64,000 bases of DNA, from contig VKHL01000010.1 of the NCBI GenBank assembly GCA_015146655.1, forward strand, positions 62,001-126,000, in the 5' to 3' direction. This DNA comes from Ochromonas danica (taxonomy: Eukaryota; Sar; Chrysophyceae; Chromulinales; Chromulinaceae). Shown piece after piece: positions 1 to 29,959 of this stretch (positions are counted from its first letter, which is position 1; the number at the start of each line of letters is the position of its first letter). Position numbers and translations under genes: made by a program. The notes beneath the pieces are model-generated. The model was not told the origin of the DNA, did not search any database, and saw nothing but the letters and a program-made list of their open reading frames with translations.

Positions 1-1953
1 TTCCATCAAAGGAAACCTCTCCAATTAACCAATCTACCCAAGCCTCTTCATACACTACGCGACCTTCGTTTCGTCGCTCATACCTTTCCTCCTCTTCATA
101 TTTAGCCCGAAGGATCTCTTCATCGCCAAGAAGGGATCCTAATTGTTCAGTGGTTGCCACTTTTAGTGTTTTGGGATCAAAACTGCTATCACGTTGCACA
201 AAGCCAACCATCTCTTGCAAACTGTATCCAGCATCCCAATAAGGTCTTGGAGTAGGTAAAGCGCCATTCTTGTAAGGCTTATCTCTGGCAGGAAACCACA
301 GCAAAGTTGGATAATTTTTGACTCCCCACAGAGCTGGTATATCATTGGCAGCACCATCTATTTTAGCTATTACGATTCGTGAATCTCCTTGAACAGCACG
401 TCCCAGAAGATCAAAAGTAGGCAGTAATTTCTTGCACTGTGCGCACCATGGCATGACAACAGCCAATAGTACGTCTTTATCAGGTGCAGAAACAGTCTCG
501 ATTACATTATTTCCAACCAGTCTTTTCACGGGGCCATTATTAGCCCCCTTCTTATGCAGTGGCTCAGATTTCAGCACCTTGGGGATTAATCCAGTGAGAA
601 CTCCTACCACAAACTCCTGCATTTCTTCAGCATTCCTTACATCAATTCGTTTGGATTTGAATTTTGAATCAGAAGTGGGCTGGTGCGCAGCAATCATAGG
701 GAGATCTTTCTCCGTGTCAATGCCAAAATATTCAATAACATCAGCAACTGATGACTCAGTCATGTAGGAGAAAATAGCTTTGCCAGCAAACAGAACAGAA
801 ATTTCCTTCCATGCAGCAATTACATCATCGTCAAGCATATGAGGCTTCAAGAGCAGAATGAACTTCAGCTTCTTCGAAGAAAAGAATTGTGTGGCATATA
901 GTTCACCTGAGAAGAAGTGTATGGAATGAGAATGGGCAACAAGAAAATTAAAATGGCTAGACTAATTGTCTCACCTGCACTGTTTGATACTGATAGTTCA
1001 CCCATTTCAGGTGAAGAATTTCGCAATACCCATTCGGAAATGCTCATTTCCAATATTTCTCCAGAATATCTGAGCAATCCATCGCCTTCGCTTGGCATCA
1101 TAAACAATGCAGGCAGGTCAGAATCTTTAAGCTTCAAGCTGGAAGCAATCTCTTCAGAAGAAATTACGAAAAAGTGAGCATGCCTATAAGTCGAAAGAGA
1201 TGATTATTGGTGTACATCTTCAAGTGATGATTGAACAATATACTAACCCTCGAAGAGCATCTGCTGCAGCCATGAACTGATTCCAGGGATCAATGGAATA
1301 CCCCTCCGGAGACTCGTCTACCATGTCTTCTTCTTTAAAGAATCCAAATACCGCAGTCTGGGTGACTATTTCAAGTACTCCTTTCATTTCTTGAATACTA
1401 GACACCCTCTTGACAGAAGGCTGGTTGCAAAATCATAGTGTTACTTGCATTTCTAGTGGAAGATTAGAGCATAGATATGATTATTACCAGAGAATCTTCT
1501 TTTAGGAAGTCAGCGATGCCTTCATCACTATCAAGTGGGCCGCGATATTCACTAATGATACCACGACGGAAAACTCGTATGCTAGGCACAGTGATTCCAT
1601 AGGCATCAATCAACTCTTTTAAGTCAGGTTCCGATCCTAAGGTCTATTAATCAAGCTTAAAATCAAACCTTGCAATTTTGTGCAAGGGAGAGTGTGGTGT
1701 GATAAGAACTCACCTTGGCAATTTCACAGTCTTCCGGCAGGTCTTCTTCTTTTAGAAGTGTCGCTGCATCTATCCATGCTTTTTCCAATCTCTTGCCTTG
1801 CAATGACTCATCATAGAAGAGGATAGCAATATATTTGTAAGCAGTTAAGGTTAACTCAAAATTGGTGCTTTCCAATTCCAAGACTATCCTTGCATTACTT
1901 ATGCAACAAAGTACTAGCAATAAACATGCAAGAATTGGCAAACTTCTTATCAT
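1..1953 (-). CDS. Protein disulfide isomerase family, 3' end outside the window
   Basis: ER oxidoreductase of the PDI family. I read five exons on the minus strand: 1953-1714, 1643-1488, 1420-1248, 1183-975 and 906 to the window edge, all with GT-AG introns and consistent phase. Residues 1-21 are a signal peptide (MIRSLPILACLLLVLCC...). The N-terminal thioredoxin fold has FYDESLQGKRLEKAW where active PDIs have FYAPWCGHCKKLAPEW, so its CxxC is gone. The middle part reads as thioredoxin-like b domains. A second catalytic domain encoded near 430-470 keeps a redox centre, PWCAQCKK (CAQC instead of CGHC), and is followed by the usual YPTLLWFP cis-proline strand. Past that the protein runs into a long charged tail that leaves the window, so I cannot see whether it ends in a KDEL-type signal. 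The family call is firm; the subfamily is not. Confidence 0.88.
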
Positions 1954-21854: not shown

Positions 21855-24800
21855 TTATTTCGTGTTATGAGCAAAAAAGCTGGACATCTTTGTGAACATG
21901 TTTTTGGGAGCTTTCTGCTGACCAGAATCTGTAGAGCTTGTGCGAGTTGTGCGATCAACAGGCTCTCCAGACGATGAAATAGTTGTGGTACTTTTCCTTG
22001 CAGCAATAAGAGGATTGATACGTGCAGGAGGAGGAGTGCCCGCAGCCTCCACATTCAATGAGCTGGAAGAAGGGAGGAGGTTGGATGCGGAGGAAGAGTT
22101 CGAATTCTTCCTGCCCAAGCCATTACTAGCAATCCCTATGCTAGCACTGCTTGCCGCTCGATCCACACTAATGCTTCGTCCAACGGGATTACCACCATTC
22201 TTACTGGTCATGATGAGATCTGGTCGCATTACTGCTGTGGAAGGAGTTGAAGAATCATTACCACCTTTCCCACTATTCGCAGCCAAAACATCATCTGGAC
22301 GAGAGGGGAGAAACTTGGAAGATATCACTCTCCCTTTTTGTAATGATTCAGTCTGTCGAGAGATTTCATAATCTGTCTCTGCAGCACGAATATGATATTC
22401 AGCATCTTCCGACTCCAAGGCAGCAACATCAAGAGCAATAGCACCTGATCCCGACCTCTTTCGAGTTACAGCCACTGAATTAGGCCGTCCATTTGTTGAA
22501 TTCCTCATCATTTCTGTCTTAAATAAAGCTGACATTGAACCAGAAACTTTTCTCAACGAGTTCGGTCCTAACTGACGCATACTCTGTCCAGATTGCAGTG
22601 ATTCACTAAATGCCATCACTGTGAAGGGCTTCTTTGCTTCCCATACTAATGGGGTATCCCATTTATAATTCATAAAGGCCGAGCTAATGAATACATGCAA
22701 ACAAACCATAATAAGCTAACAGCACTAGAAACAATAGATAACAAATAAACAACTCACCTCAGCACTTTTGTCCAGTGTTCACTCTCTTTGTTACCACGAC
22801 TATTGAAGTCTGATCTAGCTCGTACCAAAGACAGTACAATGGAACTATCTAAGTGACGGAAATCATTAATGACCATCTATGAATCAAGTAACAACAACAG
22901 TTAACTGTCAATCATCTAGAATAGATGGAAATTGAATAAATGAGATAGTTTACCTGAGCAACATCTTCTCCATCAACAGAAAAGATTACACAAATCTCTT
23001 CGAGACAAGACATCATATCCATAGCATCAGGTGAGTTCATCATAGCCATAACATGTTTATATTCTTGTATATCTCTCATGAGTACTTTTGATCCTTCCAA
23101 TGTAATCTTCTGTTTTCGTAGATGACTAATCAGATTACCAATACATTGTGAACCAAATGGTTTCCAAAACAATGTATTCATATCTACACCAACCAGTTGA
23201 CTCTCATAATTACGTATAGCATTTGTAACTTGAATAATCACTTTGCAGACTGCATCACAAGCAGATGTACAGACTCCTCCGCTCTTCTGAGGATTATTTA
23301 ACAAATTAGTAATTGCATCAAATTTGGGAGCATAATCATATTTAGATTGTAAAGAAACAAGAAGCTTTTCAATATGAAAAGCAACTCCTAACGTCCAAGC
23401 ATGTAAACATTCTCGAACACTACTCATTAACATTTTGAATGTATTACGACGAGCTTCTTTACAAACAACAATTAGATTTGGACTACTCGATAAACTTCGC
23501 ATAAAGGTATCTTCAAAATGTATTTTAATCTGATTCTTTCCATAGATTAAGGAAGTAACAGCTGGTAAGAGATCCATGGGTGGTAAACTGGAATTAGCTG
23601 CTTTAGTAGAGCAGATTTTCAACAAAAAGTTTGTACACGCCTTTGCCCAAGGTATCATTAATCCATCAGAGAGGAAGTTTAATTGTAATATAAAGAGATC
23701 TTTTAGAGAATTGTATAATTTACGATCATCTCGTCCTATACTCTCCATTCGTAAGACAGCATCTGTTGTTACAGTGAAAATAGAATTCAAAAATGTTCGA
23801 TTTGCTACCGTTTTCACTAATAATGAGATAGTCTTCATCTTCTCTGCACGTAATTGAGGTATTTGCATTAAAGTTCCACCTGAAACACGACCAAGACTAG
23901 GTGAATCATCAACTGCCTTACGTAAGAGGTTACCATATTGTGACCGTGTATGAAGTAATTCCTTGTCGAAATAATCTGAAATATATCCTCCCAATACTTG
24001 TGCTATTTGTTCTTCAAAGAACTCACGAATTTCCATATCTGAACGCATTTGTTCTTCCATTTCTTCATCATCAGCTATTTTACTACCACCAAATGTACCT
24101 CCCTCCATATTACCATCTCCTCCTCCACTAATAGTGCCTTCACGACTCTGTCGACCACCCAAAACAATGGGTGCTTTCTTCGCTCTGCGAACAGACTCTC
24201 CTTCACTTCCCATTCCACGCATAACAGGATCAGCAGCACATTCGAGTAACAAGAGATTGAGAGCAGTGAGTTTCTCTCGAACTGTTAGTAAAGCATCCAG
24301 ATAGTCTGCTAACGGTAATTTAGGAGACGGTTCAGGTGGGTAGAGAATAGCATCCACTCTTGCTTGAATACCAAATGCAGGATCAGAAAAGATACGTTGG
24401 ATGAGAGATCTTGTAACTTGAGGAATAGTATTGACAGGAAATATTTTACGAATAAGAGCAAATTGCTCAATACAAACAGTATTGATCATTTGAAATAACC
24501 CTGATAAAAGGTCAATAAGTTGTAAAGACTGTTCTTCACCTTTTGTATGGAAAGCTTGTGTTGGCATGGGGGCTGTCTGTCCTTCGTCATCTTCATCTGA
24601 ATATCCTTCTGAACTCTCATCATCTCCATTTCCTTGATGTTGACGACGACCACCCATCAAAATGTTACCATTAGTTAATCCGTTATTACCATTGGCAACA
24701 GCTGCTGCAACAGAACCTGGTGGAGGAGCCGGTTTGAATTGATTGGCAAAGTCTCTCACTTTAGCCATTAAACTCTTATCCCGATCTTGACGGAAGAAGG

Positions 24801-25620
24801 CATCATTAGGAATACGTCTTTGAATGACACCAAAGATATAACGCTTTTGTAAGGCCACTCCACCATTAAAGAGATATAAACTCTCTGCTAATCCTCTAGC
24901 TTTCTCAATAGAAACTGTATTTTCAGGATCTTGCATGAGATCATTTAAAGCTGCATCGAATTGACCTAATAATTCCATTTCTACAACTCCACCTAGACTA
25001 TCAATTAACTTATTAGCTTTTCTTAAAGTAACAGATTTCGTATCTGGATCATAAGGTGCAATAATCCGTAAGGAATAGAACACTTGAGAAATACTACCCC
25101 AATCCTTGCTTGGTAGATCACCTGGTAGACTCTCACGTAACTTTTGAGAGTTAATAGCTAAGACATTCCCAAATAGATCATCTGAAGCATCTTCAAAATA
25201 TTGTATAAAGGAAAGTAATTCTAATGATTTTTCAATATTTGCACGTTCACGATCAGAAATAGTTAATCGACTACCAACACGTACAGCACCTTCACTAGTA
25301 TGATCAAAGCTTTCTTTAACATGATCAACATGTTTACTAACATCTGTTAATTTCTCATATTGATCATCTAAATCTTGGAATAATGCACTTTCCATAGACC
25401 AGGCGGATTCTTGTAATGTGACAACTTCTTTCTCAATATCTTGAGCGAGATCATCTAAATGATGGAATAAATCATCAAATAATTGACATAACATCTCTTC
25501 AGATGGGATGCCTCCTGTTGTTGTTGACAGGGTATCTACTTGATTGGAAATGAAAGTTGTTGGATCAAATGCTGGCGCATTGATTAATCGACGTGTTGCT
25601 ACCAACGTGGTAGGTTTCAT
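21855..25620 (-). CDS. SEC10: Exocyst subunit SEC10 (EXOC5)
   Basis: Tethers secretory vesicles to the plasma membrane as part of the octameric exocyst. Three exons: 25620-22954, 22876-22758 and 22683-21855, 1,204 residues. The N-terminal coiled coil (LFDDLFHHLDDLAQDIEKEV ... FQDLDDQYEKLTDVSKHVD) and the following SIEKARGLAESLYLFNGGVALQ-type helices match SEC10. The long middle helical bundle (YNSLKDLFILQLNFLSDGL...) continues the family fold. Two acidic, low-complexity inserts lie at about 325-360 and 495-530. The last 230 residues are Ser/Asn/Pro-rich, basic and unlike animal or yeast SEC10 (about 710-870 residues), so this is a lineage-specific tail. The gene is divergent from RSPH9 with a 336-base shared promoter. 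Confidence 0.82.
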
Positions 25621-25956
25621 TTGCGATTTAGAAGAATGAAACCTATGGAACCTACGAAAACTCTGGGGATCCTATAATACTACACTGTGGCAAGCAATAA
25701 TCAACTAAAAGCTGCAGAGAGGGAAGGAAAGGGGCAACGCTTCGCGCCATTTAGACAAATTTTGGATTGGGTTTGCGCCAGTTTTGCCAGTTTTGGACAT
25801 CCCCAATATCCGAATATTCGAATATTCGAAACTCGACTGGTGACCGTTTCACCCGATGATGGAATGAAGACCAAACAAGACCAACAAGCAACAAAGATAA
25901 ATCAGAGCATTTTTCAAAAAATATACATATCCTTTGTAAGTTTCCAGAGTTAGAAG
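25621..25956. promoter_or_regulatory. Shared SEC10/RSPH9 promoter with CGAATATT repeat
   Basis: The 336-base divergent spacer contains CGAATATTCGAATATTCGAA (25811-25830), a tandem and palindromic 8-mer. About 50-70 bases upstream of it lie two CGCC-containing boxes (TTCGCGCCATTT and TTTGCGCCAG) resembling E2F-type sites. No gene is seen. Confidence 0.45.
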
Positions 25957-27219: not shown

Positions 27220-28810
27220 CTAATAAATGGGACAGCCATACTTGCTTCTAACCTTCGTTTGAATAGATTGTAGACATTCCCGAAGACATGTACTCACTTC
27301 TGCCACAGTATGAGAGGAAAACCTAAATCCAGCTTTTCGGGGCAAAAGTTTACCCAATCCTTCGGGTGCAGAGAAGCGCTCAATGGAGCGTACGAGCGAT
27401 TGCACCTGAATTTCAAAAGAGCAAATAAAACAATGCAATCCAACAAAACAAGATGACACCCACCATATCCAAGTCTTCCTTTTCAAGGAGCCACACAGCG
27501 TAATTGTAGAGTAACGTATAAAGCCTGAACTTCACCTTCTTGCACAAGCCTTGGTTCTTGAAATCCAAAGTATCGCAGCAGTCTGCAAGGCATTTCTTCA
27601 GCGCCAAGTCTTGACCAATGCGAAAGGCACATTGAGCAGAAATACCAATCTTGTGTTCTTGCTGATTGATGAAATCAATAAATTGCTGTAAATCTTCGTT
27701 GGCAATTTGCTGATTCTCCACAACATCAGCTCTCCTCACAGAGCAAGCTTCCATGTTCTCGTTCAAAGAGGTTGAAGAACGAGGCGCTTTATCAACACCA
27801 TCATCTGCACTAGCACATTCATCAACATAGGTAGTATGACCACTCTTTCCACTCCTGGTACAGCTGCTATCACTTCTTACGATTGTATGAGAACCACTGC
27901 TACCAGCAATTCCATGAGTAATTGAAGTCACTCCCTGTTGAGGTCGTTGTAAGTTAGACTGAAGTTGCATCAATGCCTCATTACGTAATTCTTCAGGAAG
28001 TGAAGAGATAAAATCTCGCTGGTATCCACTTAATGAAGAGAGCACTTCAGGACTGCTCAAAATCTCTATAACATCGCAATCCTTCTTTCTTATCGTGGCA
28101 GAGGTTGAAACACACTCTGATTCGGGAGTAGATAGAATAGTAACATCAGCATGAAGGGAGGAAGAGGAAGAGGAAGAAGAGGAAGAAGAAGATGAAGAAG
28201 ATGAAGAGGGAGAAGATGAAGAAGAGGAAGGCGTCGGATTGGAGGTTGCAGTGGCAAAGAGTTTTGTGATATTTGCACCAAATCGTCCCTTCAAACCTGC
28301 CGGAGCATATAAACTCTCACTTTGCCTAAGTCCTCTATTAACTGAGTCAACAACCCATTTTGCCGTAACATGAAACATTTTTGCTTTGCTGGAGGTAAAT
28401 TTCGATCTGGAATACTCTTGTTTCAGCTGTGCCTCGGTAAGGTAGTCACAGACCAGATGTGTAATCACTCCAACTTTGTAAGCCAAAGCCTTTCCACCAT
28501 GGAGTGTAATCAATCGACGAATTTCTTCTATGGGTGGATTGGTGATGCCATTGACATAAACGACACAGTCCTTGAAAATATGGGACTCTCTCTTTTGTCC
28601 AGCAAGGTGATGAATCTCATCTAATTTAGCTATCTTATGGGACATATATACATGAAAACTCCCTCCATGATGTTTACCAAGGCTTTGAATGGCTGCTTCA
28701 CTCTCATCTTGAACAAATTCCAGCGAGGTTCTCTTCATTCGATGTGGGTTTTTGGGTTGTGCTATTGCTATTTTGCGTGGGAGGCAACACAACTTTTGCT
28801 GTTTTGGCAT
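27220..28810 (-). CDS. REV1-like protein lacking the Y-family polymerase core
   Basis: Two exons (28810-27464 and 27405-27220), 510 residues. Residues 48-165 are a REV1-type BRCT domain: GGSFHVYMSHKIAKLDE, IFKDCVVYVNGITNPPIEE, LITLHGGKALAY, AKWVVDSVNRG. A Ser-run linker follows (about 205-235). Residues 270-290 (ISSLPEELRNEALMQLQ) fit a ubiquitin-binding motif. The last 110 residues resemble the REV1 C-terminal domain (WLLEKEDLDMVQSLVRSIER ... CLQSIQTKVRSKYG), which binds other translesion polymerases and REV7. The catalytic fingers-palm-thumb region of some 450 residues, normally between BRCT and UBM, is absent, and no space exists for it. Met24-25 (near 28738) is an alternative start. The first ATG is 23 bases from the PTGES2 stop on the same strand. 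Confidence 0.8.
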
Positions 28811-28833: not shown

Positions 28834-29670
28834 CTAATGCTTTCTATCCAATCTGCAAACTTCTTGACTATGGACTTCACCTGCGACAGCGTCATACCAC
28901 TTTTTAACAGCAGGCTTCTCCATAACTACATCAAATGTAGGGCAACCTTCAATTGCACGAAGCACACCAAACACCATCAAATCAGGCATGGTGATCTTCT
29001 CTCCATGAAGGAAACGCTTTTCACCAACAGCCTCAGTCCATTCATCAAGGACTGCCAATAGTTCGGCTCTCTCATCTTGAATAGAGTACTTCTTCTTGAT
29101 GCGACCATTGGCGAAGAACATCGCCACCGGTCCGGATGTCCTCACAAGCAAACGCTGTACCGCAGACCACTCATTCACATCCTCTGCATAGGAGAAGCAT
29201 TGCCAACTTTCTGCAAAAGTGCGAGTGATATTAGGATACAGAAGAATAGCCAACCGCTTCTCACTCCATTCCATCCACTTTTCGGTGTCTTCAGTCATTA
29301 GTTCCTTCACTTTGTCACTTGCATGAGTAGAAGAAATACGGGAAATGATCACATCCGATCCATTAAGGACTGCATCGTCAATCTTCGCAATAGGTACCTT
29401 CTTGTATTCTGAAAAGGACAACTCGGCCTTTGTGAGAGGGTTTACTTCCACAGTTTCGTAAGGAATTTGTAAATAATCCAAATAAGCCTTTACTCTGTGG
29501 CAAAAAGGGCATATTTTATATTGGTAGACGATGGGGATATCGTTCTGTTTTTGGATGTTGCCATCACAGAGAGCTCGGGGTCGAAGAAGCAAGGCGGTAC
29601 CACCAATTAAAGCAGCACGATTGGCATAAGTACGAATATTAGCAGCCGCAAAACGAGCACCAAAAGACAT
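28834..29670 (-). CDS. Prostaglandin E synthase 2-like glutaredoxin/GST fusion protein
   Basis: 278 residues in one exon. An N-terminal basic/Ala-rich segment (MSFGARFAAANIRTYANRA) and a short hydrophobic span (IGGTALLLRPRAL) look like a mitochondrial leader or anchor. Then comes a glutaredoxin-like fold with the active site YKICPFCHRVKAYLDY (CPFC), and a GST C-terminal helical domain (DTEKWMEWSEKRLA ... ITMPDLMVFGVLRAIEG). Order and length match PTGES2, whose in-vivo function outside animals is uncertain (heme/GSH binding has been described). I chose the ATG at 29670 because the 31 upstream in-frame residues have no conserved character. It is followed after 23 bases by the REV1-like gene. 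Confidence 0.9.
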   Translation of the reverse strand: MSFGARFAAANIRTYANRAALIGGTALLLRPRALCDGNIQKQNDIPIVYQYKICPFCHRVKAYLDYLQIPYETVEVNPLTKAELSFSEYKKVPIAKIDDAVLNGSDVIISRISSTHASDKVKELMTEDTEKWMEWSEKRLAILLYPNITRTFAESWQCFSYAEDVNEWSAVQRLLVRTSGPVAMFFANGRIKKKYSIQDERAELLAVLDEWTEAVGEKRFLHGEKITMPDLMVFGVLRAIEGCPTFDVVMEKPAVKKWYDAVAGEVHSQEVCRLDRKH

Positions 29671-29959
29671 GGTTAACAGTTGATTCCAAACAAGTTGAGG
29701 GTGTTGTTCTTGTCTGTGGATGAGCGCAGTAGAGCACCAAGCAGGGCAAGGTGGTTCAAGCAAACAATGTGCAAGTAATTGTTGTGGCGCGCGGGAATGG
29801 AGGGGTTGGTAGACTAGGTCAATCCCTCACCCTCACACACGCTGTACCCCAGGTATTGGATGACTTATTAGGAAACAAAATTGAAATAGCATCGCGAGGA
29901 AGAATTAGATAACAGAATAGTTGTGTTTTTTTTAGCATAGTTAACTACTACTAGGAAGA

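Follow-up and report, generated by a model that had tools for sequence, protein, structure and literature searches.

The chrysophyte alga Ochromonas danica probably carries REV1 as two genes: a scaffold half, located in the 64,000-nucleotide stretch of DNA analyzed here (the window; contig VKHL01000010.1, positions 62,001 to 126,000, assembly GCA_015146655.1), and a catalytic half on a different contig, C34. The sequences show the two genes with their domains; the partners each half would bind, the division of labor between them, and an origin by duplication with complementary loss are what we infer. Evolution thereby seems to have pulled apart the polymerase and scaffold roles that are fused in yeast and humans. 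No earlier report of a split REV1 was found in the literature searched, from which subscription papers were mostly out of reach.

The scaffold half is read from the minus strand and comprises two exons. Its features, together with the neighboring gene, are as follows.

27220..28810, minus strand: entire gene for the scaffold half of REV1 (first ATG at 28810, stop at 27222-27220)
27464..28810, minus strand: exon 1, residues 1-449, a single open frame of 449 codons
27406..27463, minus strand: intron of 58 nt, GT..AG
27220..27405, minus strand: exon 2, residues 450-510 and the stop
28616..28666, minus strand: M1-like helix, residues 49-65 (GGSFHVYMSHKIAKLDE), from a sequence pattern and a helix in the structure model
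28325..28579, minus strand: BRCT of REV1 type, residues 78-162, from Pfam and PDB sequence matches
27947..28015, minus strand: UBM-like motif, residues 266-288, from PF14377
27223..27700, minus strand: C-terminal helical region, residues 371-510, with the intron within it, from HMM, profile-profile comparison, and structure model
28834..29826, minus strand: neighboring upstream gene, glutathione-transferase-like by eye

A preliminary description had given the gene 510 residues, and 510 codons are indeed counted from the first ATG; the start, as far as sequence can tell, is probably Met25 at 28738, giving 486 amino acids, because the relatives mostly begin MKR. Upstream, a minus-strand frame ends at 28834, and with the neighboring gene at 28834..29826 there is no room for further 5′ exons. 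Nor is there room for a polymerase core, since the way from the BRCT to the C-terminal domain (CTD) consists of exon 1 and one 58-nt intron, which bears out the original claim that the catalytic core is missing and that the exons leave no space for it. When the intron site was compared by eye with 20 relatives (alignment A2), the alignment was lost exactly there in 14, continued through in five, and was ambiguous in one; the 14 losses suggest a shared intron in frames left unspliced. Among the database matches, this genome's core half is represented (P0008), but the product of the window gene is absent. Elsewhere in the window, a long minus-strand frame (22912-25671) has, by eye, the look of an exocyst subunit (Sec10-like).

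Ahead of its C-terminal region the protein carries three scaffold elements. Its single BRCT is of REV1 type, as first proposed: two Pfam families exceed their cut-offs (PF16589, E 6.1e-7; PF00533, E 3.2e-6), and the best five matches of the protein among PDB sequences are all REV1 entries, reached via the BRCT with E between 6e-9 and 7e-8. Fold searches with the relative P0002 also point to BRCT structures. The UBM-like motif, which follows a serine-rich stretch, aligns at the same place in relatives, and its PF14377 score (20.3 bits) lies below the 23.3 cut-off, which leaves it a candidate UBM; UBM-like was also the original wording. To the domains originally listed, an M1-like helix upstream of the BRCT can be added. 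An M1 pattern shaped on these same scaffold sequences is found in 24 of 24 scaffold halves (window included) versus 0 of 22 core halves, and a stricter version in two of nine REV1s with a core that were tried. Position and helix are the grounds for equating this element with yeast M1, as described in PMC12871630, and it is accordingly termed M1-like. Pfam gave no IMS match to the window protein, and none of the 24 scaffold halves has the palm motif. By itself, then, the window gene encodes the scaffold half of a REV1 and not a REV1 polymerase.

The C-terminus fits a divergent REV1 CTD, as judged by sequence profiles, over helices 2-4 (residues 434-509). Against a purpose-built HMM of 44 REV1 tails, the window tail scored 16.7 bits, the best of 2000 shuffles scoring 8.2 and the best unrelated frame among 560 ORFs 3.2. 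Profile-profile comparison with hhalign gave 94.2% (E 1e-7), compared with at most 0.4% for 100 column shuffles and 0.2% for the reversed profile. Furthermore, helices 2-4 end in KYG-x-[LI], as in other REV1 tails. The resemblance to the REV1 CTD that had been noted initially is thus upheld for these helices; helix 1, the RIR-binding side, found no match by profile, and neither Pfam REV1_C nor the PDB sequence search matched the window CTD (a six-frame Pfam search of the DNA cannot join the two exons). Among the six complete tails of relatives, those of P0002, P0137, and P0138 did not rise above their respective shuffles with the REV1-tail HMM, and the score of P0142 was equaled once. A single-sequence structure model of P0002 reached pLDDT 33; a 20-row model gave helices with block pLDDT of 73-90 across residues 321-400. 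In fold searches with P0002, yeast Rev1 (8tlq_B) aligned over 21..413 with an rmsd of 34, a multidomain match in a listing filled by BRCT, and the best 50 matches listed in either search, dominated by BRCT structures, contained no stand-alone REV1 CTD.

These results bear on the alternative that the scaffold half has drifted into a BRCT-UBM adaptor acting on PCNA, with C-terminal helices that no longer bind REV7 or polymerases. We consider this unlikely: the CTD is the least conserved part of the scaffold halves in the alignment of relatives, its helix 1 is unmatched, and Pfam REV1_C is negative, all of which such drift would accommodate, but helices 2-4 with their KYG-x-[LI] ending are recognizable well above controls, and REV3 and a REV7 fragment exist in the genome. 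REV3, located on C134, matches pol zeta at E 3e-74, ahead of delta in second place at 4e-20. The REV7 fragment, close to the end of C250, matches MAD2B (E 1.6e-10) ahead of MAD2A (1.1e-7) and is weak by HORMA family (E 0.001, below cut-off).

The preliminary description had named two options, a natural scaffold-only gene and half of a split gene, and proposed a search for a separate catalytic core. The two options fit together, as the catalytic half is present as an intact gene of its own. A PF00817 search of the genome contigs (31.2 Mb, 337 contigs) returned three Y-family genes, one of which, on C34, has a frame of 782 codons that runs intact between a start and a stop of its own. Pfam assigns it IMS (E 4.3e-41), and its best PDB match is the human REV1 core (3gqc, E 4.7e-81). 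The frame carries the template-arginine segment SRLHHLS as well as HVDMDCFF and SCDE, and it terminates in a UBM-like motif; BRCT and REV1_C are absent by Pfam. The gene upstream lies on the opposite strand, and no CTD-like frame was seen by eye in the 3′ flank. By eye and by Pfam, the other two Y-family genes are pol kappa-like (C14) and pol eta-like (C29). A full-length REV1 elsewhere in the genome is rejected: none of the three Y-family genes has a BRCT or REV1_C (Pfam on the main frames), and P0002 as a query found a single strong M1-BRCT locus, the window gene, with the next match at E 0.55. The pol eta-like gene (C29, L007:2139-3764, minus strand) has a C-terminal UBM-like motif of its own (PF14377, 14.7 bits, below cut-off) and a PCNA-box-like C-terminus (KLTSWLAK).

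The same scaffold architecture, whose presence in related species had been suggested as a check, recurs in 23 further proteins retrieved by two database searches. Because the length limits of these searches exclude most fused REV1s, what the lists document is a recurrent architecture and not the absence of a fused REV1 from species with a scaffold half; the presence of both halves in one organism was checked in this one genome. Across 20 relatives, the scaffold halves share 34 invariant columns. One of them, P0002 (EON65_05850), is named "archaeon" in its record and is a eukaryotic REV1 scaffold half, a mislabeled metagenome record.

The search with the core half permitted fused REV1s, and its top matches were nonetheless core-only. 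We followed 22 core-only entries, this genome's own EukProt model (P0008) among them, picked by rank and by reading from 120 listed matches; P0015 and P0028 are apparently alternative models of a single gene, and P0034, P0052, P0055, P0057, and P0098 were left outside the set though they also are without Pfam BRCT or REV1_C. All 22 have the palm motif and 20 the template-arginine segment, the other two (P0028 and P0117) being cut at the N-terminus. This segment starts at residue 18-52 in the core-only entries; of the 99 other entries, 63 have it, with a median start at 205. P0034, P0076, and P0091 also start near the core, and a missing BRCT alone is thus not unique to the core-half clade. A rapidly built tree of 72 rows places the 21 labeled core-only entries and P0117 on one branch (SH-aLRT 98); without P0117, support for the label boundary is 77. 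P0076, from Sorochytrium milnesiophthora, has core, UBM, and REV1_C with the BRCT absent, and its core begins near residue 12; this fungus may have lost the BRCT, or the model may be incomplete.

An assembly or gene-model artifact, in which a normal REV1 would have had its catalytic exons misplaced, is largely refuted. Such an error might be sought in a draft assembly of 337 contigs, but it is highly improbable here: BRCT and CTD are joined by one open exon and a 58-nt intron, the arrangement recurs in 23 other database proteins, and the core half begins and ends with a start and a stop of its own, is represented by a EukProt model (P0008), and has 21 core-only counterparts besides. Likewise highly improbable is a decaying REV1 copy that lost its core. 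The single copy and the serine-rich low-complexity stretch might point that way, but the frame is open, 34 columns are invariant across 20 relatives, the intron position seems to be common to relatives, and the set of retained domains is exactly the scaffold one.

The tails of the core halves are distinguished by PCNA-box-like motifs. The pattern [ILMV]xx[FYW][FW], which we take to be the core of the PCNA box and which was chosen after the core tails had been inspected, occurs 26 times, compared with 1.6 expected from shuffles, and is spread over 19 of the 21 core tails. In the core-to-CTD linkers of other REV1s, it occurs once, in one of 45 (3.2 expected); 45 of 48 linkers were used, as P0044, P0054, and P0127 have no recognizable core end, and the control tails and linkers are mostly fungal. 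An earlier run with 38 of the 48 linkers usable gave the same picture (one motif, 2.4 expected). The two exceptional core tails, P0019 and P0023, end in W-type boxes. A looser pattern, [ILMV]xx[FYW][FWLYMR], reaches all 21 core tails, with 45 motifs where 7.8 are expected, and 19 of 45 linkers, with 22 motifs where 20.5 are expected. The UBM-like LPxx[IVLM] is present in 20 of 21 core tails. Ten of the 21 core tails contain the strict RIR pattern FF[^P]4 (3.7 expected), as do five of 45 linkers (4.4 expected). FF motifs as a general link to the CTD are rejected on this count, the PCNA-box interpretation being the one that applies generally, and the core half may bind the CTD in only a subset of species.

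Compared with yeast Rev1 and human REV1, the window gene has the same parts in the same order, namely an M1-like helix, BRCT, UBM-like motif, and CTD-like C-terminus, and the C34 gene has the core with the template-arginine segment and catalytic motifs. The difference is that yeast and human REV1 are each one gene, while here the ends are separated from the middle on two genes of different contigs, and that the core half bears PCNA-box-like motifs from which the REV1 linkers tested are mostly free. According to PMC12871630, yeast Rev1 regulates pol zeta without recourse to its catalytic activity but requires M1 and the CTD to do so. Among the separation-of-function mutants described there (catalytic-dead, delta-M1, and delta-CTD), the latter two concern the very parts kept by the window gene; the algal separation differs in being natural and complete, with the core on a different polypeptide. 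In layout, the C34 core half also resembles pol eta and pol kappa, in which, again per PMC12871630, a catalytic core is followed by a tail with PCNA-box and ubiquitin-binding motifs. The difference is that the C34 core is REV1's own, both by sequence and by tree.

A division of labor can be proposed on this basis. The M1-BRCT region of the window protein would bind PCNA and primer-template DNA, its UBM-like motif would bind ubiquitylated PCNA, and its CTD would be the docking site for REV7 (pol zeta) and perhaps for further Y-family polymerases. The C34 half, being without a BRCT, would reach PCNA itself through its PCNA-box-like motifs, as Y-family polymerases in general do; in certain species a half of this type might also bind the CTD via an FF motif. 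The polymerase would then be a PCNA-recruited client and the window gene product a scaffold that calls pol zeta.

As to how the split arose, simple fission is rejected. In fused REV1, the BRCT and CTD flank the core, yet here they stayed together, and one break cannot explain two ends kept together with the middle apart. Duplication with complementary loss would work, as would export of the core followed by its deletion; the retention of a UBM-like motif in each half is in keeping with such an origin.

For the algal clade as a whole, we put at about even the chances of a two-component REV1 composed of a PCNA-recruited dCMP transferase and a polymerase-free scaffold, which would rejoin on PCNA or by FF-CTD contact; under this two-component reading, the layout suggests that the gene was duplicated and that the two copies then lost complementary domains. 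Whether the polymerase and scaffold roles of REV1 need to reside on one chain has so far been probed with engineered mutants. In many related sequences, the two roles now appear on different polypeptides, with catalytic motifs and scaffold domains both kept, providing a natural system in which either role could be removed without touching the other. The arrangement also yields a prediction, namely that the polymerase needs a PCNA motif after losing its covalent link to the scaffold.

Apart from REV1, the genome gave 47 light-harvesting-protein matches, counted exon by exon, which mark it as that of an alga. Four of equal score lie at an exact spacing of 2407 bases in C224:8673-16382, either a tandem array of recent origin or a repeat produced by the assembly.
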